Positions 26,369-34,549 of a DNA stretch of 64,000 nt are shown piece after piece; positions within the stretch are counted from its first letter, which is position 1; every line of letters begins with the position of its first letter. The notes below the pieces were generated by a model that ran no database searches, had not been told where the DNA came from, and saw only the letters and a program-made list of their open reading frames with translations. Origin of the DNA: Dyadobacter sp. (GTDB taxonomy: Bacteria > Bacteroidota > Bacteroidia > Cytophagales > Spirosomataceae). Where the stretch lies: NCBI RefSeq assembly GCF_017744695.1, contig NZ_JAGIAS010000001.1, positions 649,013-713,012 on the forward strand, given 5' to 3'. The position numbers and the translations under genes were made by a program.

Positions 26369-26884
26369 ATGAACGACCAAGTGGTGCTTGTAACGGAAAA
26401 CGACGAAGCCATTGGCCTGATGCCCAAGCTGGAAGCGCATGAAAAAGGTGTGCTGCACCGCGCGTTTTCGGTGTTTATTTTTAATTCAAAAAACGAAATG
26501 CTGTTGCAAAGGCGCGCATTCGGAAAATACCACTCGGAAGGCCTCTGGTCGAATACCTGTTGCAGTCACCCGCTCCCGGGCGAGGCCGTACACGACGGGG
26601 CCGTGCGACGCCTGCGTGAGGAAATGGGGATCGAAACCGACCTCGAATTCCTCTACACCTTTCAATACCGTGCCGATCTGGAAAACGGCCTGACCGAAAA
26701 CGAACTGGACCATGTGTTCTTTGGGGTGACGGACGCCACACCGGCCATCGACCCTGCGGAAGCCAGCGACTACAAATACCTGACAGTACCTGAAATCCAG
26801 GCCGACATCGCGCAAAACCCGCATGCCTACACCGAATGGTTCAAAATATGCATGCCGGTCATAGCCCGCAGGATTGGCGACTAA
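26369..26884 (+). CDS. idi: Isopentenyl-diphosphate delta-isomerase, type I
   Basis: A 171-residue Nudix-fold enzyme that interconverts IPP and DMAPP, the starting units for isoprenoid chains. The catalytic cysteine is C65 in SNTCCSHP, and the metal-binding REEMGI stretch (about 83-88) and a conserved acidic C-terminal segment are present. Length is normal for bacterial type I enzymes. It is convergent with, and only 8 bp from, the FAD enzyme of the UbiA-polyketide synthase operon. That placement suggests it feeds prenyl donor to that pathway, though it may simply serve general isoprenoid synthesis. Confidence 0.95.
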   Translation: MNDQVVLVTENDEAIGLMPKLEAHEKGVLHRAFSVFIFNSKNEMLLQRRAFGKYHSEGLWSNTCCSHPLPGEAVHDGAVRRLREEMGIETDLEFLYTFQYRADLENGLTENELDHVFFGVTDATPAIDPAEASDYKYLTVPEIQADIAQNPHAYTEWFKICMPVIARRIGD

Positions 26885-26892
26885 AGCAATTC

Positions 26893-28032
26893 TTAAAACA
26901 CGTCCCCATGCGTAAGCGCAACCAGCTTTGATGTGAGCCAGGGGGATTTGTTCAGCGCTTTTAATGCGAAATCGGTCGTGCGGCTTTTCCCGAAAAGCTT
27001 TTGCAAATGGTACCCCGCCCTGATGCGCCTACCGAACACCGCGTTCCATTCGCGACGGTAATTTTGCGCGGCCTGGCCGTGCGTTTGCTTTCCATTAAAA
27101 AGGTGCAGTAACTGCCCCGCAAGCAGCTTGGAAGCACGCATGGCCATACTCATGCCATTACCACAAAGCGGCGTAATGGAACCTGCCGCGTCACCAAGCA
27201 GGAATATGCCGCTTAAATCGGTTTGCTTTTTGCTGAATTGCACATTACTGATGACTAGTGGCCGCGCATTTACAAACTTGGAGTTTTGAAAGTATTTTTT
27301 CAGAAATGGGTTTTTAAATAGAACTGCTTCCTCCATTTGCTTTACATCCTTACCATTTTCAAGCAAGTTCCGTGCGGTGGTGAGGTAGCAGAGGCAATAC
27401 CAGTCGTGGTCCACTTTGGAAATACCACAATAGCCATCACTGAAATTGTGCAGTTCAATTCGATTGGCAGGAAAATCAGTTTTAATATGGTATTTAACGC
27501 CGATATAATTCTGGTTATCAGCATTTAATCTTTCACTTTCGGAAAACCGGACAAATTGCGGCGCATATTTGCCATAACTTCCGCAAACAACCTCCGAACT
27601 AAAATCCCCGGCAGAAGTACGGATCTGAAAACCATCCGCGGCACTCCCCTGCACATCCGTAACCCTGCATTCCTGCATCACGCGCACGCCCTTGCGCAAG
27701 GCTATTTCGCACAGGTAATGATCGAGGCTGTACCGGCTAATGCCGAAACCACCCATTCCGAGGTTGTGATTTAATAGAAATCCGCGGTCAGAACTAATAC
27801 CCAGGCTATTGATTTTGGGCAATGCGAGATCGGCAAGCGGCAATCCTAAACTTTCCAGAAACGGCCAGCTTTCCATCGAAATATACTCCCCGCAAACCTT
27901 ATGGAAAGGATACTTGCCTTTTTCGAATACCACCACTGAAACACCGCCGTCAGCCAATTGAATCGCCAGGCAAATGCCCGCCAGCCCTCCGCCGATAATA
28001 GCGCATTCGAAATGTTCATTACTGGTTTCCAT
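26893..28032 (-). CDS. FAD-dependent oxidoreductase (geranylgeranyl reductase/monooxygenase-like)
   Basis: A 379-residue flavoprotein. The N-terminal dinucleotide motif is G14-G16-G19 in AIIGGGLAGICLA; the second FAD motif is GDAAGSITPLCGNGM (G280-D281). CGEYIS near residue 47 is typical of geranylgeranyl-reductase-like and tryptophan-halogenase-like members of the PHBH superfamily. It is last in the three-gene operon and overlaps the methyltransferase gene by 14 bp. It may hydroxylate the aromatic ring, as flavoproteins do in phenolic-lipid clusters, or reduce a prenyl chain. The sequence alone does not decide. Confidence 0.85.
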   Translation of the reverse strand: METSNEHFECAIIGGGLAGICLAIQLADGGVSVVVFEKGKYPFHKVCGEYISMESWPFLESLGLPLADLALPKINSLGISSDRGFLLNHNLGMGGFGISRYSLDHYLCEIALRKGVRVMQECRVTDVQGSAADGFQIRTSAGDFSSEVVCGSYGKYAPQFVRFSESERLNADNQNYIGVKYHIKTDFPANRIELHNFSDGYCGISKVDHDWYCLCYLTTARNLLENGKDVKQMEEAVLFKNPFLKKYFQNSKFVNARPLVISNVQFSKKQTDLSGIFLLGDAAGSITPLCGNGMSMAMRASKLLAGQLLHLFNGKQTHGQAAQNYRREWNAVFGRRIRAGYHLQKLFGKSRTTDFALKALNKSPWLTSKLVALTHGDVF

Positions 28033-28711
28033 AAACGATCACTTCATGCCTGAATGCCCATTTGTTACGCACAGAAAATCGAGTGGCACCGGACTGTTTC
28101 AATATTTCGTGCCATTCTTTCTTCTTAAAACCCCTCAAAACCGACAACGGGGCATCGTTTTTCACGAGATATGATTTTGAAAAAAACCGGGTCAGTATTT
28201 TGATCGAATAATGTGCCAAGGGATTTCTTTCAAGGTCGTTGATAACCAGCACAGCCCGGTTGCGCAACGCAAATTGCACCAACTCCCGGAGATCGTCGTT
28301 GGTAAGGTGGTGACAAAAAAGGCACGCATGGATGATATTGACCTTCGCCAAATGCTGGTAAGTATTCCGATAATCATCACAAATGAGTGTCACACCGCTG
28401 TTTTTCAGGTTTTCTTCGGCGTATGCGATGCAATCCGGTTTCAAATCGACGCCGTATAGATCGAGCGCGAAACCCGCTTTTCGGTTCCAATGGGCAATGC
28501 GTTTCAATGTATCTCCGCCCCCGCATCCAATGTCGACCAGCGTGTAGCGCCTGCCTTTTTGCAGCACACGTTTCAATGCCGTGAATGAAATGTTATAACC
28601 GCCCAGCCAATGGTTGATAAAATCCAGCTCCCGGAGATTTTGAAAAAGATCTGCCGAAGGAATATCGTCCCGGTCGAGCAGTTCCTTTTGCAAGCTCCTA
28701 TGCCTGAACAT
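28019..28711 (-). CDS. Class I SAM-dependent methyltransferase
   Basis: A 230-residue Rossmann-fold methyltransferase. SAM motif I is VDIGCGGGD (59-67), with an acidic residue near 95 after YGVD(L)KPD and motif II/III region IHACLFCHHLTNDDL (about 128-142). The C-terminus is basic and could dock on the membrane. It overlaps the upstream fusion gene and the downstream FAD gene by 14 bp each, so the three are translationally coupled. Probable task: O- or C-methylation of the polyketide product. Confidence 0.85.
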   Translation of the reverse strand: MFRHRSLQKELLDRDDIPSADLFQNLRELDFINHWLGGYNISFTALKRVLQKGRRYTLVDIGCGGGDTLKRIAHWNRKAGFALDLYGVDLKPDCIAYAEENLKNSGVTLICDDYRNTYQHLAKVNIIHACLFCHHLTNDDLRELVQFALRNRAVLVINDLERNPLAHYSIKILTRFFSKSYLVKNDAPLSVLRGFKKKEWHEILKQSGATRFSVRNKWAFRHEVIVYGNQ

Positions 28712-30668
28712 ACTGCAACTGCATGGTTTCGATACTCAGTCCCGGGCCAAATGCCGCAGCGAAAATGCGGTTACCCAGGTGTTCGGGCTGTGCTTTTTCG
28801 AGCACTTCTTTCAGGACAAACAGCACCGTCGGCGACGACATATTTCCATAATTTTTCAGCACGTCATAGGTAGGCCCGAGCAGACATTTGTCCAGCTCCA
28901 ACGCCATAGCGAAGTCGTCCACAATACGTTTTCCGCCGGGATGCACCGCCCAATGCCGGTAATCCTCCGGTTTGAGCCCCACGGCTTTGAGCATAGGCCC
29001 GATATTCTCTCGGATAAGGTCGGGTACGTAGGACGACAAATTCATGATGAAACCCGTTTCAGAAAGCTGCCATGCCATGTCGGAATAACCATTATGCAAC
29101 ACCATCGAATTGAAACCATCGATTTTCACGGGATGCAAATACCGGTCGTCCGGCTGAGACGATACCAGCAAGGCCGCCGCGCCGTCGCCGAAAATCATAT
29201 TCGAAAGCAGGTAATCGTCATTATACCGCTTTTGGAAGTGAATGGAGCAAAGCTCCGTGCATACGACCAACACTTTGGCATTTGCATGGCTTTTACAAAT
29301 AGCATCGGCGTTCTTCAATGCGAGAATGGCGGCATTACAACCCATAAAGTTGACGCTGCTACGCTCGATAGCGGGATTCAAACGCAACTCGCGCATTAGC
29401 TCGATGTCCAGACCGGGCGCAAACAAACCGGTGCAGGTGACTGTGATCAGATGGGTGATATCCTCTTTTATGTTTTCAAAACCGGGGATTTGCCCGATGG
29501 CCTTTTTTGAAAGCGCGGTCGCGTGTTTTTGGTAAAGCTGCATCCGCCGCGAAAGCGTGGGCTCCGGGAGTAATGTAGCATCCCGGTTGAAGAACTCGAA
29601 TTCTTCGGGTGTTTTATCAAAATCGGGAATTACGGAATAACGTTTTTCGATACCCGTTTTTCTTGCGACGATCTTGATTTTCCGGCGGGTATTCAGGTCG
29701 TCGGTCGATCGCAAATAGAAATCGGTGAGCGTTTCCTGTGTATAACCATATTCGGGAACGGCTGTTTCAATAGAGGATAGATAACTCAATGGAATTCTGC
29801 TGATAATAATTAAAACGATGAAACAACTATTCATGCAAATCGCCGCCACCCAGTTCATCCGCATGGTATTCCGGAAATTGGCCTGCCGGCGGTCTTTCCA
29901 AACCAGCGAAAACCATATCCCGAACCAGATCACAATGGGAATAAAAAACACCTGGACAATGTAAAAAATCATTCCAAGCTCCCTGGTCGTAAAATACAAA
30001 TAATAAAACACATTGCAGAGCACAAACATGGCGGCCGTGAATGCAAAAGTGCCGATATAGCCCAATTTATAGCTCAATGTAACCACGCCGTCGCACAGGT
30101 CCTGCTCGTGCTGGTACACCTGCGTGAGCGGATACGCGCCCGCGATCTGGAAAGAGCAACCCAACAATACGAAGATATTGGCCGTATCGAGCCGCAGCGC
30201 GCCTCCCGAAATCCCGGCAATCGACATATAATAGGTGAACGCCCCCTGAAAAATCACCACGGTCAGAAAACCGATGATCGGGTACTTTTTCAGCCTGACC
30301 TGCCGCGAACTATACGCCCTTGACGCCCCGATGTACAGCACCAGGCAAAACGCGAACAATGTATTTACGAAAACAAGTGCGAGAACGGTTGCGGCAACGT
30401 CCAAAAAAATCGTGAGGTAAAAAAGGTCCCTGGTGGGAAGCGGCGGCTTTTCCAGCCCGCCAATGCTGTCTTCGTCGCGGTCGACATAGCTGTTATACCC
30501 GTTACTCGCCGGATAAACGAGGAAATGGATGATCAGGAAACTCCACAATGCCTGCCTGTGTACCACTGCTTCGGCCTGGCTGTATGCAAACAAAAACAGC
30601 GGCGCGAGAAATAATGAGAAAGGGATTCTCAGGAGTTTGATGGTGTTGCGGTCGACGGCGAATGGCAT
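28698..30668 (-). CDS. UbiA-type prenyltransferase fused to type III polyketide synthase
   Basis: A single 656-residue reading frame. Residues 1-293 form about eight membrane helices with UbiA aspartate motifs: N56 to D68 in NGYNSYVDRDEDS, and D190/D193 in EQDLCDGVVTL. Residues about 297-656 are a full-length type III polyketide synthase with the Cys-His-Asn triad C444 (FMGCNA), H576 (AVHPGG) and N609 (YGNMSSP), plus the GFGPG-like loop seen as AFGPG. Both halves keep their catalytic motifs and normal lengths, so a frameshift join is unlikely. The product is probably a prenylated or membrane-embedded alkylphenol. First gene of the operon. Confidence 0.9.
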   Translation of the reverse strand: MPFAVDRNTIKLLRIPFSLFLAPLFLFAYSQAEAVVHRQALWSFLIIHFLVYPASNGYNSYVDRDEDSIGGLEKPPLPTRDLFYLTIFLDVAATVLALVFVNTLFAFCLVLYIGASRAYSSRQVRLKKYPIIGFLTVVIFQGAFTYYMSIAGISGGALRLDTANIFVLLGCSFQIAGAYPLTQVYQHEQDLCDGVVTLSYKLGYIGTFAFTAAMFVLCNVFYYLYFTTRELGMIFYIVQVFFIPIVIWFGIWFSLVWKDRRQANFRNTMRMNWVAAICMNSCFIVLIIISRIPLSYLSSIETAVPEYGYTQETLTDFYLRSTDDLNTRRKIKIVARKTGIEKRYSVIPDFDKTPEEFEFFNRDATLLPEPTLSRRMQLYQKHATALSKKAIGQIPGFENIKEDITHLITVTCTGLFAPGLDIELMRELRLNPAIERSSVNFMGCNAAILALKNADAICKSHANAKVLVVCTELCSIHFQKRYNDDYLLSNMIFGDGAAALLVSSQPDDRYLHPVKIDGFNSMVLHNGYSDMAWQLSETGFIMNLSSYVPDLIRENIGPMLKAVGLKPEDYRHWAVHPGGKRIVDDFAMALELDKCLLGPTYDVLKNYGNMSSPTVLFVLKEVLEKAQPEHLGNRIFAAAFGPGLSIETMQLQYVQA

Positions 30669-30696: not shown

Positions 30697-30731
30697 GACC
30701 GCCGACGACCGACCGCTGACCGCCGACGACC
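30697..30731. repeat. Heptamer array GACNNCC
   Basis: Five 7-bp units (GACCGCC, GACGACC, GACCGCT, GACCGCC, GACGACC), upstream of the fusion gene. The same unit forms the arrays at 41394-41421 and, inverted, 41438-41469. Confidence 0.85.
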
Positions 30732-30755: not shown

Positions 30756-30932
30756 GTCAGGTGTAGTCAGGAATGGTCATTTATTGTCAGAAATAGTAAG
30801 TTGGCTATGCTTTATTCTCACTACGTGACAGCGGCTCCAAACCGACATTCAAGATATTTGACTACACCTGACTACTCTTGACAACTCTTGACTACTCTTG
30901 ACTACTCTTGACTACTCTTGACTACTCCTGAC
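30756..30932. repeat. Inverted pair of 10-bp arrays (GTCAGGTGTA-like)
   Basis: Four forward units of GTCAG-N5 type lie at 30756-30795. Seven units of the inverse form (ACTACTCTTG) lie at 30861-30930. The 65 bp between them is unique. One unit equals about one helical turn. A related forward array is at 57142-57178. The array ends 14 bp before the stop of the acetyltransferase gene. Confidence 0.88.
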
Positions 30933-30946
30933 AAATGCCCCCATCG

Positions 30947-31747
30947 CTACCCTTCCCCGCGGGTCGTAATCCGCAGCTGATGTGTATTAAACACCTGCGA
31001 ATTGGGTGCGACGCTTTTGGTGAGAAAAACACTGCCACCGATGACGCTGTTTTCGCCGATGACAGTGTCGCCTCCCAGGATGGTTGTCCGAGCGTAAATG
31101 ATAACGTTATCGCCGACCGTGGGGTGGCGTTTGGTATTGTAAAGCTCCTTCGCGACCTGCAATGCGCCCAACGTAACGCCCTGATAAATACTTACATTCC
31201 GGCCGATCACCGAAGTGGCGCCGATCACAATGCCGGTACCGTGGTCGATCATGAATGGCACGCCGATGGTGGCTTCCGGGTGAATGTCTACGCCCGTTTT
31301 ACCATGCGCATATTCGGTAAGGATACGCGGCAAAACGGGAATTTGCAGGATACTCAGGTAATTGGCGATTCGGTAAACGGCGATCGCGTAAAAACCAGGA
31401 TACGAAACGATCACTTCGTTGACACTCGTAGCGGCCGGATCGTATTCATAAATTTTGCTGGCGTCGAGGCGCAGGTTCTTGTAAATCGTTTCAAGCTCGT
31501 CGTAAAATGAAGCCACTTTTTGCTCGATGGCTACCTTTTTAGGATCGAGGTAACTGAGCAGGATGTTTTCAAGATCGATCTGGTTCTTCTTTAAAATACC
31601 TTCATATGAGGTCTTTTTGGGCAAATGATTGCTGGGGAAAAGAAAACGGATCAGATCGTCGAGCCAGGCTGTGGCATCATGCCAGGAGGGAGTCGCCTCC
31701 CACTCGGCATGATGTGTTTTTTTAAGAAGATCGATGAGTGGTGACAT
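30947..31747 (-). CDS. Serine O-acetyltransferase (encapsulin-associated)
   Basis: A 266-residue enzyme with an N-terminal helical domain (about 1-135) and a left-handed beta-helix of hexapeptide repeats (about 150-255). Active-site features typical of serine acetyltransferases are VPFMIDHGTGIVIGATSVIGRNV and KRHPTVGDNV. It makes O-acetylserine for cysteine synthesis. The gene follows the encapsulated cysteine desulfurase by 5 bp. This trio is a known arrangement for family 2A encapsulins and suggests the compartment is tied to cysteine supply. Alternative: another acyltransferase of the same fold. Confidence 0.88.
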   Translation of the reverse strand: MSPLIDLLKKTHHAEWEATPSWHDATAWLDDLIRFLFPSNHLPKKTSYEGILKKNQIDLENILLSYLDPKKVAIEQKVASFYDELETIYKNLRLDASKIYEYDPAATSVNEVIVSYPGFYAIAVYRIANYLSILQIPVLPRILTEYAHGKTGVDIHPEATIGVPFMIDHGTGIVIGATSVIGRNVSIYQGVTLGALQVAKELYNTKRHPTVGDNVIIYARTTILGGDTVIGENSVIGGSVFLTKSVAPNSQVFNTHQLRITTRGEG

Positions 31748-31752
31748 GCTTT

Positions 31753-33645
31753 TTATCTCCTCTGGCCGCTCAGCCGGTGCAGCGTTGTCACAAGCACGTC
31801 TATCTCTCCGCAGGTATTATAAAATGCCAGCGACGGACGCACGGTGGTTTCGAGACCGAACCTTCTGAGAATGGGCTGCGCGCAGTGGTGGCCTGAGCGC
31901 ACGGCAATGCCTTCCTTGTTGAGCGCCGCGCCTACTTCCTCGGTTTTATAACCATCCAAAACAAATGATAGCACCGATGCTTTTTCCTTCGCTGTGCCGA
32001 TCAGACGCAGGCCCGGCACCTGCTTCATCAAACCGGTCGCATATTCGAGCAGGAAGTGTTCGTACTGGTGAATATTCTCTATACCGAGCTGATTCACATA
32101 ATCCAATGCCGCACCGAGGCCTACTGCGTCGGCGATATTGCCGGTGCCCGCTTCGAAGCGCGAAGGCGCGTTATGATATTGAATATGCTCGAATGTCACA
32201 TCCACGATCATGTTACCGCCACCTTGCCATGGCTGCGTCGCATTCAGGATTTCCTCCCTGCCATACAAGGCACCGATGCCCGTCGGACCGAAAACTTTAT
32301 GCCCCGAGAAGACAAACCAGTCGCAGTTGAGGCCCGTCACATCCGTACGCAAGTGCGAAACGGATTGTGCGCCGTCGAGCAGCACTTTTGCACCGACAGC
32401 GTGGGCCATTTCGATGATCTGCTTTGCGGGTGTTACCGTGCCCAATGCATTCGAAACCTGCGTAAAAGAAACGAGCTTGGTTTTCGGGTTCAGCAATCCT
32501 GCGTAAGCGTCGAGCAAAATCTGACCGTCGTCATCGACAGGGATTACACGTAGCACAAGGCCCTTTTTATCCGCCAGCTGCTTCCAGGGAACGATATTCG
32601 CATGGTGTTCGAGATGGCTTACAATGATTTCGTCGCCCGCATTCAAGTTTTGGTCACCCCAGGTTTTCGCTACGAGGTTAATCGCCTCGGTAGTGCCCCG
32701 TACAAACACGATCTCATTCACCGATCTCGCATTCACAAATGCGCGTACCTTCTCACGTGCGCTCTCGTATGCGTCTGTTGCGCGGGCCGCGAGCTCATGC
32801 GCGGCACGGTGAATGTTGGAATTTTCGTGTTCGTAGAAATAGCTGATCCGGTCGATTACCTGTTTCGGCTTCTGGGTAGTAGCCGCATTGTCGAACCAGA
32901 TCAACGGCTTGCCGTTCACCCTTTCCTTAAACACCGGGAAGTCGTTTCGAACGCGATTTACATCAAAGGGTATCTTGCCAATCGGACTCTGTACGGCCCG
33001 GCCTAGCTGGTCGCGATCGTTGCCGACATGGATATTACCCAATGAAAACGGTGAAAAGCTATGTGGCAAAAAGTTGGCAGCGCCCGGGACATGCGGCTTT
33101 TCTGTGAAATTTTCATTCAGAAAATAATAGGATGGCAGCGATGGCGAAGCACCTGAATAGGGCAAATGCGCAGAACTCCCAAAATTCGGAAGTCTGTTGA
33201 ATACATCCGTCAAATCATGCTGGCTATCCTGGTAAGGCAATGCCGGATTCGTATTACTGACCGGCGACTGCCCCGTAGGCACCTGGCCAGCCGGGGAAAT
33301 ACCTACGCCGGCGGCCGATGGCGGAACATGGCCATCGGTAAAATGCGGGTCAGGCAGGCTCGTCTGCGGCTCGCTCAGATCAAAATCCTGATGCGATTGG
33401 GAATACGGGTCTGATGGCGATTGCCCGCCTCCGAATTCCTGCTGAATGATCCCCAGCATCTTTTGCGCCCTCGGATGGTCTTCGAGATTCGCCGAGAATA
33501 CGGGAGACGGCATTTCGCCCGGCAGTGCCTTGAAAAGCTCGTTGGCGAGCCGCTCCAAAGCGCCGGTATCGGGCAGACCGCTTGAAGAACCGCCCGGAAA
33601 ACCGTTTGGGATGCCTTCCGGCATTCCATCAATATTTGTACTCAT
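31753..33645 (-). CDS. Family 2A encapsulin cargo cysteine desulfurase
   Basis: A 630-residue protein. Residues 1 to about 225 are low-complexity, rich in G, P, S and N, and look disordered; in this family such tails direct loading into the shell. The rest is a SufS-like (group II) desulfurase: the segment PLIWFDNAATTQKP, PLP lysine K450 in FSGHKVFGPTG, and catalytic cysteine C588 in RSGHHCAQP. It turns cysteine into alanine plus a persulfide. The start overlaps the shell gene by 17 bp. No suf genes are adjacent, which argues against ordinary Fe-S duty. Confidence 0.93.
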   Translation of the reverse strand: MSTNIDGMPEGIPNGFPGGSSSGLPDTGALERLANELFKALPGEMPSPVFSANLEDHPRAQKMLGIIQQEFGGGQSPSDPYSQSHQDFDLSEPQTSLPDPHFTDGHVPPSAAGVGISPAGQVPTGQSPVSNTNPALPYQDSQHDLTDVFNRLPNFGSSAHLPYSGASPSLPSYYFLNENFTEKPHVPGAANFLPHSFSPFSLGNIHVGNDRDQLGRAVQSPIGKIPFDVNRVRNDFPVFKERVNGKPLIWFDNAATTQKPKQVIDRISYFYEHENSNIHRAAHELAARATDAYESAREKVRAFVNARSVNEIVFVRGTTEAINLVAKTWGDQNLNAGDEIIVSHLEHHANIVPWKQLADKKGLVLRVIPVDDDGQILLDAYAGLLNPKTKLVSFTQVSNALGTVTPAKQIIEMAHAVGAKVLLDGAQSVSHLRTDVTGLNCDWFVFSGHKVFGPTGIGALYGREEILNATQPWQGGGNMIVDVTFEHIQYHNAPSRFEAGTGNIADAVGLGAALDYVNQLGIENIHQYEHFLLEYATGLMKQVPGLRLIGTAKEKASVLSFVLDGYKTEEVGAALNKEGIAVRSGHHCAQPILRRFGLETTVRPSLAFYNTCGEIDVLVTTLHRLSGQRR

Positions 33646-34549
33646 GGTAGTTACCGATTTCTACGTCTTCCAACACCGCAATCGCGTCGTCGACCAGTAC
33701 GGCCAGCGAGCAGTAAAGCGAAACCAGGTACGAGGCGATCGCCTTGTCGTTGATACCCATAAAACGGACCGAAAGCCCTGGCGACTGCTCACCCGGCAAT
33801 CCCGGTTGATACAACCCTACCACGCCCTGGCGGCTTTCGCCGGTCCGGAGCAAAAGGATTTTCGTTTTGCCGTTTTCAATCGGCACCTTGTCGGATGGGA
33901 TCAGTGGAATGCCCCGCCATGTGATAAATTGGGAGCCAAAAAGCGAAATTGTCGGAGGCGGAACGCCCTTGCGCGTACACTCGCGACCGAATGCGGCGAT
34001 GGCCTTGGGATGCAGCAGGAAGAAACCAGGCTCTTTCCAGACTTTCGTGAGCAGTTCGTCCAAATCGTCCGGTGTAGGCGGGCCGAGGCGGGTAGAAATC
34101 TTTTGTCTATCGGCTATGCTCGAAAGCAGGCCATACTCCTGGTTGTTGATCAGCTCGCTTTCCTGCCGCTCTTTAATGCTTTCAATGGTCAGGCGGAGCT
34201 GCTCGCTAATCTGGTTATAAGGCTTGCTGTACAAATCCGACACGCGGGTATGCACGTCGAGCACCGTGTTCACGGCCGTCAGGTTATACTCGCGCGGATT
34301 TTCAACGTAATCGATAAAGGTATGCGGCAATTCACGTTCGTCGCGACGGGAGCAATCCACCTCAGCGGTACTGCCTTCTTTCACCTTGTTCAGGCGGTAC
34401 ACGCCAGACTCTACCGGTATCCAGTTTAGCAAATGCGTCAGCCAACGCGGTGTGATCGCCTCGAATTGAGGCACCGTACGGGTTGCGATCGCCAACTGCC
34501 GTGCTGCCACGTCACCGAGCGCAGTTTGATTTTGGTTTAACTTGGCCAT
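33629..34549 (-). CDS. Family 2A encapsulin shell protein
   Basis: A 306-residue HK97-fold protein that self-assembles into an icosahedral nanocompartment. Recognition rests on the family 2A pattern: an extended N-arm ending TRTVPQFEAITPRWL, the VDCSRRDERELPHTFIDYVENPREYNLTAVNT block near residues 63-95, and the FITWRGIPLIPSDKVPI E-loop region. No cyclic-nucleotide-binding insertion is present, so it is 2A not 2B. The order shell, desulfurase, acetyltransferase with overlapping or nearly touching genes makes one operon. Confidence 0.93.
   Translation of the reverse strand: MAKLNQNQTALGDVAARQLAIATRTVPQFEAITPRWLTHLLNWIPVESGVYRLNKVKEGSTAEVDCSRRDERELPHTFIDYVENPREYNLTAVNTVLDVHTRVSDLYSKPYNQISEQLRLTIESIKERQESELINNQEYGLLSSIADRQKISTRLGPPTPDDLDELLTKVWKEPGFFLLHPKAIAAFGRECTRKGVPPPTISLFGSQFITWRGIPLIPSDKVPIENGKTKILLLRTGESRQGVVGLYQPGLPGEQSPGLSVRFMGINDKAIASYLVSLYCSLAVLVDDAIAVLEDVEIGNYHEYKY

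Follow-up and report, generated by a model that had tools for sequence, protein, structure and literature searches.

A one-base gene fusion in Dyadobacter joins a UbiA-fold membrane domain to a type III polyketide synthase and keeps the old start codon between them

A membrane domain and a polyketide synthase in one frame

We analyzed a 64,000-nucleotide (nt) stretch of Dyadobacter sp. DNA (contig NZ_JAGIAS010000001.1, positions 649,013 to 713,012; hereafter the window), part of a 7.83 Mb genome of the Dyadobacter group. Its minus strand encodes a natural fusion of a UbiA-fold membrane domain with a type III polyketide synthase (PKS). An initial annotation, based on the letters alone, described the two halves as a single 656-codon frame, and the frame is indeed open throughout, with all three domain profiles above their cut-offs: Pfam UbiA at residues 21-271 (58.5 bits, cut-off 34.2), Chal_sti_synt_N at residues 298-506 (96.8 bits, cut-off 27) and Chal_sti_synt_C at residues 524-653 (75.1 bits, cut-off 27). 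The genes for a methyltransferase and a flavin adenine dinucleotide (FAD)-dependent oxidoreductase that were reported to overlap do so, each sharing 14 nt with its upstream neighbor, and the gene order in the window is UbiA-PKS-methyltransferase-FAD enzyme (Table 1). Gene order and strand differ between families. The closest named relative at the fused locus is D. jiangsuensis (95% identity, with the records nearest to the genome itself possibly excluded).

Table 1. Features of the fused locus and its immediate surroundings, in window coordinates
Feature	Position	Strand	Basis
Fused UbiA-type III PKS gene (P0001), 656 amino acids (aa)	28698..30668	-	Open reading frame, Pfam, same fusion in 32/48 genus genomes
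UbiA-fold membrane domain, residues 1-292	29793..30668	-	Pfam, AlphaFold2, Foldseek to A. fulgidus UbiA (template modeling score, TM, 0.70)
TTGAGT, codons 294-295: kept former PKS start TTG; former UbiA stop TGA now out of frame	29784..29789	-	No codon changes in 32 distinct fused genes; equals stop/start overlap of split relatives
Codons 275-311, with reduced synonymous change on either side of the old start; local mRNA structure predicted to be weakest at codons 286-298	29736..29846	-	Synonymous-change scan, local folding
Type III PKS; also predicted free product from TTG294, 363 aa	28701..29789	-	Pfam, alignment, structural matches
Class I S-adenosylmethionine methyltransferase (P0002), 14-nt overlap with PKS end (28698-28711)	28019..28711	-	Pfam/NCBIfam; frequent PKS neighbor
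FAD-dependent oxidoreductase, geranylgeranyl-reductase/monooxygenase kind (P0003), 14-nt overlap with methyltransferase (28019-28032)	26893..28032	-	Profiles; frequent PKS neighbor
Type I isopentenyl-diphosphate (IPP) isomerase, convergent to the cassette	26369..26884	+	NCBIfam above cut-off
Codons 217-235, second dip in synonymous change, in the UbiA part	29964..30020	-	Synonymous-change scan

A single fusion event within the genus

Among 48 Dyadobacter-group genomes, 32 encode the fused gene, 13 encode the two genes separately, and 3 (G200, G205 and G215) have no close pair. In all 13 split members the genes meet in a 4-base TTGA overlap, which combines the UbiA stop TGA with the PKS start TTG. 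The fused genes carry a net one extra base just before this overlap (split AATCATTTCCTTTGAGTTAC in L094 versus fused AATCATTTTCCTTTGAGTTAC in L093). In a maximum-likelihood tree of UbiA, PKS and methyltransferase from 49 distinct taxa (loci with PKS identity of at least 55%), the 32 fused genes form one clade with a bootstrap of 90. We conclude that Dyadobacter underwent this fusion a single time, by a net gain of one base (+1) where the two genes overlap.

Fused and split states that lie one base apart are also what an assembly or annotation artefact joining two genes could produce. However, recurrence of the frame in 32 of the 48 genomes rules out a sequencing error, the same frame is found in 17 of 30 named loci of a separate, partly overlapping collection, and the fused genes group in one clade. 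The chance that the fusion is artificial is practically negligible. A stop or frameshift near residue 295, which the initial annotation named as the observation that would speak against a genuine fusion, does exist, yet in the split relatives rather than in the majority that keep the frame. The two-domain architecture was also to be followed through Cytophagales: it recurs in part of the genus, and among the UbiA matches of a 194-genome sample of the order there is no fused frame beyond the genus (only the same-genus G000, G073, G127, G159 and G184 are fused). The two enzymes are separate proteins in the relatives examined outside the genus, as had been stated to be normal for both families.

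Two further candidate events did not hold up. A genome search returned a 693-aa open frame in G118 that looked like an independent fusion, but a TAA closes the UbiA frame there some 110 nt ahead of the PKS (L109), and the open frame is 304 aa. A reversal of the fusion was considered where the split L095 falls inside the fused clade in a 62-taxon UbiA and PKS tree; the support is weak (0.51), and the placement is not seen in the 49-taxon tree that includes the methyltransferase.

The old PKS start inside the fused gene

Codon changes were counted in 32 distinct genes from 49 fused loci (17 duplicates removed), with a neutral tree length of ~22 substitutions per fourfold site. Leu294, the former start, is TTG in 32/32 genes without a single codon change on the tree; the 36 other invariant Leu columns each have 4-18 changes, and of the 63 columns that are mostly Leu, 294 alone is free of codon change. 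The next codon behaves likewise: Ser295 is AGT in 32/32 genes with no change, compared with 2-14 changes in 17 other invariant Ser columns. Both codons are identical to the bases used in the split genes (TTG in 13/13, AGT in 12/13). TTG294 is thus a start codon kept beyond the need for its amino acid, as is characteristic of two-product genes with a conserved internal start, and its preservation suggests that the second enzyme is also made alone.

The surroundings of the codon are quiet as well. A scan of synonymous change over 456 columns has two dips, at codons 275-311 and 217-235, each to 0.34 of expectation, and a dip as low as that at the junction was reached anywhere in 1 of 2000 permutations. 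In local mRNA folding of 12 of the 32 fused genes, the 13 weakest structures among 625 codon positions are those at codons 286-298. Translation initiation in Flavobacterium is described as depending on low structure and on A at positions -3, -6, -12 and -13, without Shine-Dalgarno sequences (PMC6847099). We compared distinct 66-nt contexts (23 fused and 16 split, of which the 12 with TTG were used and the 4 with GTG left out). A at -6 is found in 21/23 fused versus 0/12 split contexts and A at -12 in 22/23 versus 2/12, a difference that rests on few ancestral changes, so that the counts are not independent. A coupled restart that became a stand-alone internal start is a reading that fits these patterns: the gene would yield the continuous UbiA-PKS protein plus a free 363-aa PKS initiated at TTG294. 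A programmed frameshift that releases UbiA at the out-of-frame TGA was also considered (judged by eye) and is not favored because the codon before TTG varies (CCA 16, CCT 13, CCC 3).

Several observations weigh against two products. The second dip, at codons 217-235, is as deep as that at the junction and without explanation; it lies in AT-rich sequence of high nucleotide conservation, with Gly232 fixed as GGA, and might be an RNA element or an internal promoter. Codon change is absent from 13 of the 456 columns (Q31, Q39, V101, N102, Q186, G232, F235, S281, C282, L294, S295, Y653 and V654). Columns 653-654 sit in the overlap with the methyltransferase start and serve as a positive control, although the scan has no broad dip there. 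V101, G232 and S281 are unchanged without explanation, so absence of codon change is not by itself proof of a start. The split genes are as unstructured at the junction as the fused ones (mean of -3.6 versus -4.0 kcal/mol), so the low structure predates the fusion, and it derives in part from AT-rich helix codons. Two of the four favorable bases, A at -3 and -13, are absent from all fused contexts, and the early-branching fused L054 and L093 lack A at -6. TTG is a weak start, and in the fused genes it never turned into ATG or GTG. Finally, a single base would suffice to undo the fusion, yet the frame has been kept in 32 species, a hint that the fused protein is tolerated or of use.

Some of these points are what a nearly neutral scar would leave behind. 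In that case only the fused protein would be made, with no special role, and the quiet stretch at codon 294 would be an RNA element or internal promoter of a kind that also explains codons 217-235. The position of both dips in one half of the gene, their similar depth, the AT-rich and conserved character of the second, and the other single unchanged columns are in keeping with this. However, the adjacent unchanged codons at the junction are exactly the former start and the codon after it, as used by the split genes. A search for consensus RNA structure over both dips gave nothing convincing, with none in 150-nt windows starting at codons 291, 301 and 311. The Bacteroidota promoter box TAnnTTTG has no coding-strand match in the four fused genes scanned (L009, L010, L054 and L093). 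We consider a neutral scar quite improbable.

Fold, topology and motifs of the UbiA half

AlphaFold2 predicts the full fused protein with a mean local confidence (pLDDT) of 92.6 and a predicted TM score (pTM) of 0.70. The UbiA half has nine helices (residues 15-31, 37-63, 80-101, 103-120, 130-154, 162-182, 198-228, 232-258 and 265-290), and the same nine are obtained when it is modeled alone. The ninth ends at residue 290 and the first PKS strand starts at 296. Foldseek matches the half over its full length to Archaeoglobus fulgidus UbiA bound to geranyl diphosphate (GPP) (4tq3; 298 alignment columns). Lys and Arg are far more numerous in the presumed inside than in the outside loops (14 versus 3 in the window protein), and the inside count is higher in 20/20 rows of our UbiA alignment, a set of 20 chosen sequences. 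According to its structural report, A. fulgidus UbiA probably has a cytoplasmic N-terminus and a C-terminus outside, with both aspartate motifs on the cytoplasmic side, in agreement with E. coli UbiA (PMC4106721).

Since the helix count is odd and the charge pattern agrees, a PKS attached after helix 9 would lie on the face opposite the aspartate motifs. In this model it should face the periplasm, opposite the UbiA active site and malonyl-coenzyme A (CoA), and direct hand-over of a polyketide to the prenyl-transfer site appears unlikely. The initial annotation had read the layout as implying just such a hand-over, with the polyketide made at the membrane. This part of it is not supported, given the predicted side of the C-terminus, the retention of the same cassette in split relatives, the net one-base origin of the fusion in one clade, and the constraint that still acts on the old PKS start.

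A bifunctional, membrane-anchored enzyme, in which the phenol is formed at the membrane and goes straight to the enzyme's own prenyl-transfer site, nevertheless has arguments on its side. The frame is open in all 32 fused species, no reversal appears in the larger (three-gene) tree, UbiA and PKS co-occur tightly, and linker residues are conserved in the fused genes (N290 in 29/32, R291 in 29/32, P293 in 32/32). Set against these are the predicted placement of the PKS opposite the aspartate motifs, the few residues between helix 9 and the first PKS strand, the constraint on TTG294, which would be superfluous in a pure fusion, and the split relatives in other genera that hold the same cassette. 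Such direct transfer is decidedly unlikely.

The aspartate motifs were placed by the initial annotation at N56-D68 and D190/D193. N56 and D190 are invariant (20/20 rows), but residue 68 is Ser and D193 falls outside the conserved columns. Invariant polar residues in 20/20 rows include N56, N59, D63, D65, Y119, S120, R125, K127, Q186, H187 and D190. Within motif 1 (NDxxDxxxD), N59, D63 and D65 are invariant, and position 67 is Asp in the window protein and variable in the family. Motif 2, usually DxxxD, departs from that of canonical UbiA prenyltransferases: it is QxxxD, with Gln186 and D190 invariant in 20/20 rows (Q186-H-E-Q-D190 in the window protein). For this reason we refer to the protein as a UbiA fold rather than a proven prenyltransferase.

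It could instead be another UbiA-superfamily enzyme of the same pathway, one that uses a different donor or acts as a cyclase or hydrolase and does not prenylate the polyketide. The Gln that replaces the first motif-2 Asp throughout, the unconserved third Asp of motif 1 and the weakness of the closest sequence match among solved structures (chlorophyll synthase, E 4e-4) are in line with this. No variation is seen, however, at N59, D63 or D190, or at Y119 and S120 of the catalytic cluster. In a pairing made by eye, invariant residues match N68, D202, Y139 and S140 of A. fulgidus UbiA (PMC4106721), and the fold match at TM 0.70 is to a GPP-bound enzyme. We rate a different superfamily activity as unlikely, but worth keeping in mind.

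The PKS half and its cassette

The PKS half has the Cys-His-Asn triad of type III polyketide synthases at the positions first assigned (C444, H576 and N609), in columns invariant across 25/25 PKSs of an alignment of chosen sequences; of two further alignments, one omits L091 and the other L063. Its fold belongs to the thiolase-like family, with TM scores (target-normalized) of 0.84-0.89 to PKS18, Mycobacterium marinum PKS and Ectocarpus PKS. The best solved relatives of the PKS profile are these three and Steely1 (PDB 2h84), the best profile match among solved chains. Several of these relatives accept long acyl starters.

The methyltransferase and FAD enzyme are recurrent partners. In 27 PKS loci compared we found a methyltransferase in 16, an FAD enzyme in 15 and a separate UbiA in 13, and no other neighbor family in more than 4. 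Only two further protein families are common to 3 or more of the loci, each near the PKS in 4 (L121, L122, L127 and L062; L122, L125, L127 and L133).

UbiA and PKS also travel together at larger scale. Of the 194 genomes in the order sample, 140 have the UbiA subfamily (E of at most 1e-60), 134 the PKS (E of at most 1e-100), 132 both, 8 UbiA only, 2 PKS only and 52 neither. At the level of the phylum (296 genomes), UbiA scores at least 300 bits in 21 genomes, and these same 21 are the only ones in which the PKS scores at least 442 bits; weaker UbiA (142-145 bits) is present in 5 additional genomes and weaker PKS in an additional 114. Co-occurrence in 132/142 order genomes that have either gene, and of the strong forms in the same 21/296 phylum genomes, supports a UbiA that is dedicated to the PKS. 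The two genes are adjacent in 16 of these 21 genomes; in G010, G012, G030, G064 and G388 they lie apart or on separate contigs. In several other genera too, UbiA lies away from the PKS or on another contig of the same genome (L114, L115, L118 and L119). One family of genomes (f42; L146-L149 and others) has a related PKS, which in many of these genomes lies ~ 10.6-13.9 kb from a contig start. There is a weak methyltransferase match beside the PKS in the 4 f42 loci examined, and the weaker UbiA (142-145 bits) in 5 genomes.

PKS-methyltransferase-FAD sets occur without UbiA in 4 of 13 PKS loci from genomes that lack strong UbiA (L153, L154, L156 and L158). One of these 13 genomes has a weaker UbiA, which is not among the four with the three-gene set. 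Two of the four, L156 and L158, have the order FAD-methyltransferase-PKS. These sets suggest that UbiA joined an older core of three enzymes, and that the FAD enzyme does not have to work on a prenyl chain. A role of the FAD enzyme as a prenyl reductase is less likely for the same reason, although the enzyme's best NCBIfam match, which falls below the cut-off (84.9 versus 158.8 bits), is to the geranylgeranyl-reductase family.

In each of the 20 Dyadobacter loci compared (L039-L058), the FAD gene has an IPP isomerase gene within ~ 1.3 kb; none was found beside L059-L068 within the sequenced flanks examined, some of them short. A link of this neighbor to prenyl supply is possible. Upstream of the fused gene, on the same strand (30947-34549), are genes for a serine acetyltransferase-like protein, a cysteine desulfurase that has a long extension at its N-terminus and the shell protein of a family 2A encapsulin. 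The shell protein is SrpI-like (360.6 bits), and 8 of the 20 Dyadobacter loci have an SrpI match next to the cassette. The stretch that separates the fused gene from the acetyltransferase contains 7.5 tandem copies of the 10-bp unit TTGACTACTC at 30858-30932, and a shorter array with a 7-bp unit lies at 30697-30727.

A proposed pathway with two enzyme forms

Taken as a whole, the best explanation is a one-time fusion with a retained TTG start, two products and a cassette for a prenylated phenolic lipid, to which we assign a probability of roughly 0.6. The free PKS would be the working, cytosolic enzyme, because the fused PKS is expected in the periplasm, distant from both CoA substrates and the active site of UbiA. 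The PKS may build an alkylresorcinol-type phenol, a route we propose because of the nearest solved relatives (including PKS18 and Steely1) and because alkylresorcinols and hierridins are associated with operons that combine genes for a PKS, a methyltransferase and an oxidoreductase. The methyltransferase would then methylate the phenol, the FAD enzyme would oxidize the ring, and the dedicated UbiA would add a prenyl chain to give a membrane meroterpenoid or quinone-like lipid. What we infer here includes the sequence of the reactions, both chains (acyl and prenyl) and prenylation itself; a prenylated product is plausible.

To the points raised above about the internal start we add three of a different kind. 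The first Asp of motif 2 is replaced by Gln186, a real reservation that leaves prenyl transfer uncertain. The topology argument depends on a model with pTM 0.70, with the membrane side deduced from helix number, charge pattern and comparison with A. fulgidus UbiA, and it would fall if helix 9 stays uninserted. Lastly, the two-product model and the predicted lipid derive from sequence and structure prediction. The most far-reaching version of the proposal is that a gene born when one inserted base joined two overlapping genes makes two selected enzyme forms (UbiA-PKS and the free PKS from TTG294) within a four-enzyme pathway (UbiA and PKS in 132/194 order genomes) that gives undescribed prenylated, methylated phenolic lipids or quinones. 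We hold this at somewhat less than even odds.

Whatever its product, a one-base gene fusion with both states in living relatives offers a clear test of whether a genomic fusion is also a working fusion. It also cautions that 'Rosetta stone' fusions of membrane proteins should not be read as channels before their topology is checked. The cassette itself points to a pathway that is widespread in the order and probably makes a prenylated phenolic lipid.

Comparison with known systems

The cassette recalls phenolic-lipid operons, as was initially suggested, in that PKS, methyltransferase and FAD oxidoreductase genes stand side by side in the window and in other genera. In Streptomyces, the PKS, methyltransferase and flavoprotein hydroxylase of srsABC produce methylated alkylresorcinols and quinones; unlike the Dyadobacter cassette, srsABC has no UbiA gene and no fusion. 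In the plant cannabinoid and daurichromenic acid pathways, a membrane enzyme of the UbiA type prenylates what a type III PKS has made, but there the enzymes are separate eukaryotic proteins with other substrates. Steely1 of Dictyostelium is likewise a naturally fused protein with a type III PKS domain at its end, but it is a type I/III PKS hybrid, and the partner in Dyadobacter is a membrane UbiA-fold domain. The retained start has parallels in other bacterial genes, for example that of SctQ of type III secretion, in which a conserved internal start gives a free C-terminal protein, so that a long and a short product come from one frame. In Dyadobacter the internal start is the fossil of a separate gene, and the short protein is predicted.

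Cyanobacterial hierridins (PMC8086630) and planctomycete alkylresorcinols (PMC10896814) have both been linked to operons that bring together a PKS, a methyltransferase and an oxidoreductase, and 58/96 planctomycete type III PKS genes are reported to lie in a methyltransferase-oxidoreductase-PKS operon (PMC8086630 / PMC10896814). The hierridin hidABC genes and the Planctomycetota operons share that order, in contrast to UbiA-PKS-methyltransferase-FAD enzyme in Dyadobacter. The Dyadobacter cassette also differs in its dedicated UbiA, which is fused to the PKS in some members, and the likeness is judged by gene content rather than protein kinship. One cyanobacterial hierridin-like cluster, in Raphidiopsis, does include a prenyltransferase and is called unique in the report (PMC8086630). 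The matches listed in open-licence literature include neither a description of a UbiA-type III PKS fusion nor a product assigned to the Bacteroidota cassette, which is weak evidence given that subscription journals are mostly uncovered. The parts are of known kinds; what is new is their combination, and a fusion that has kept its internal start.

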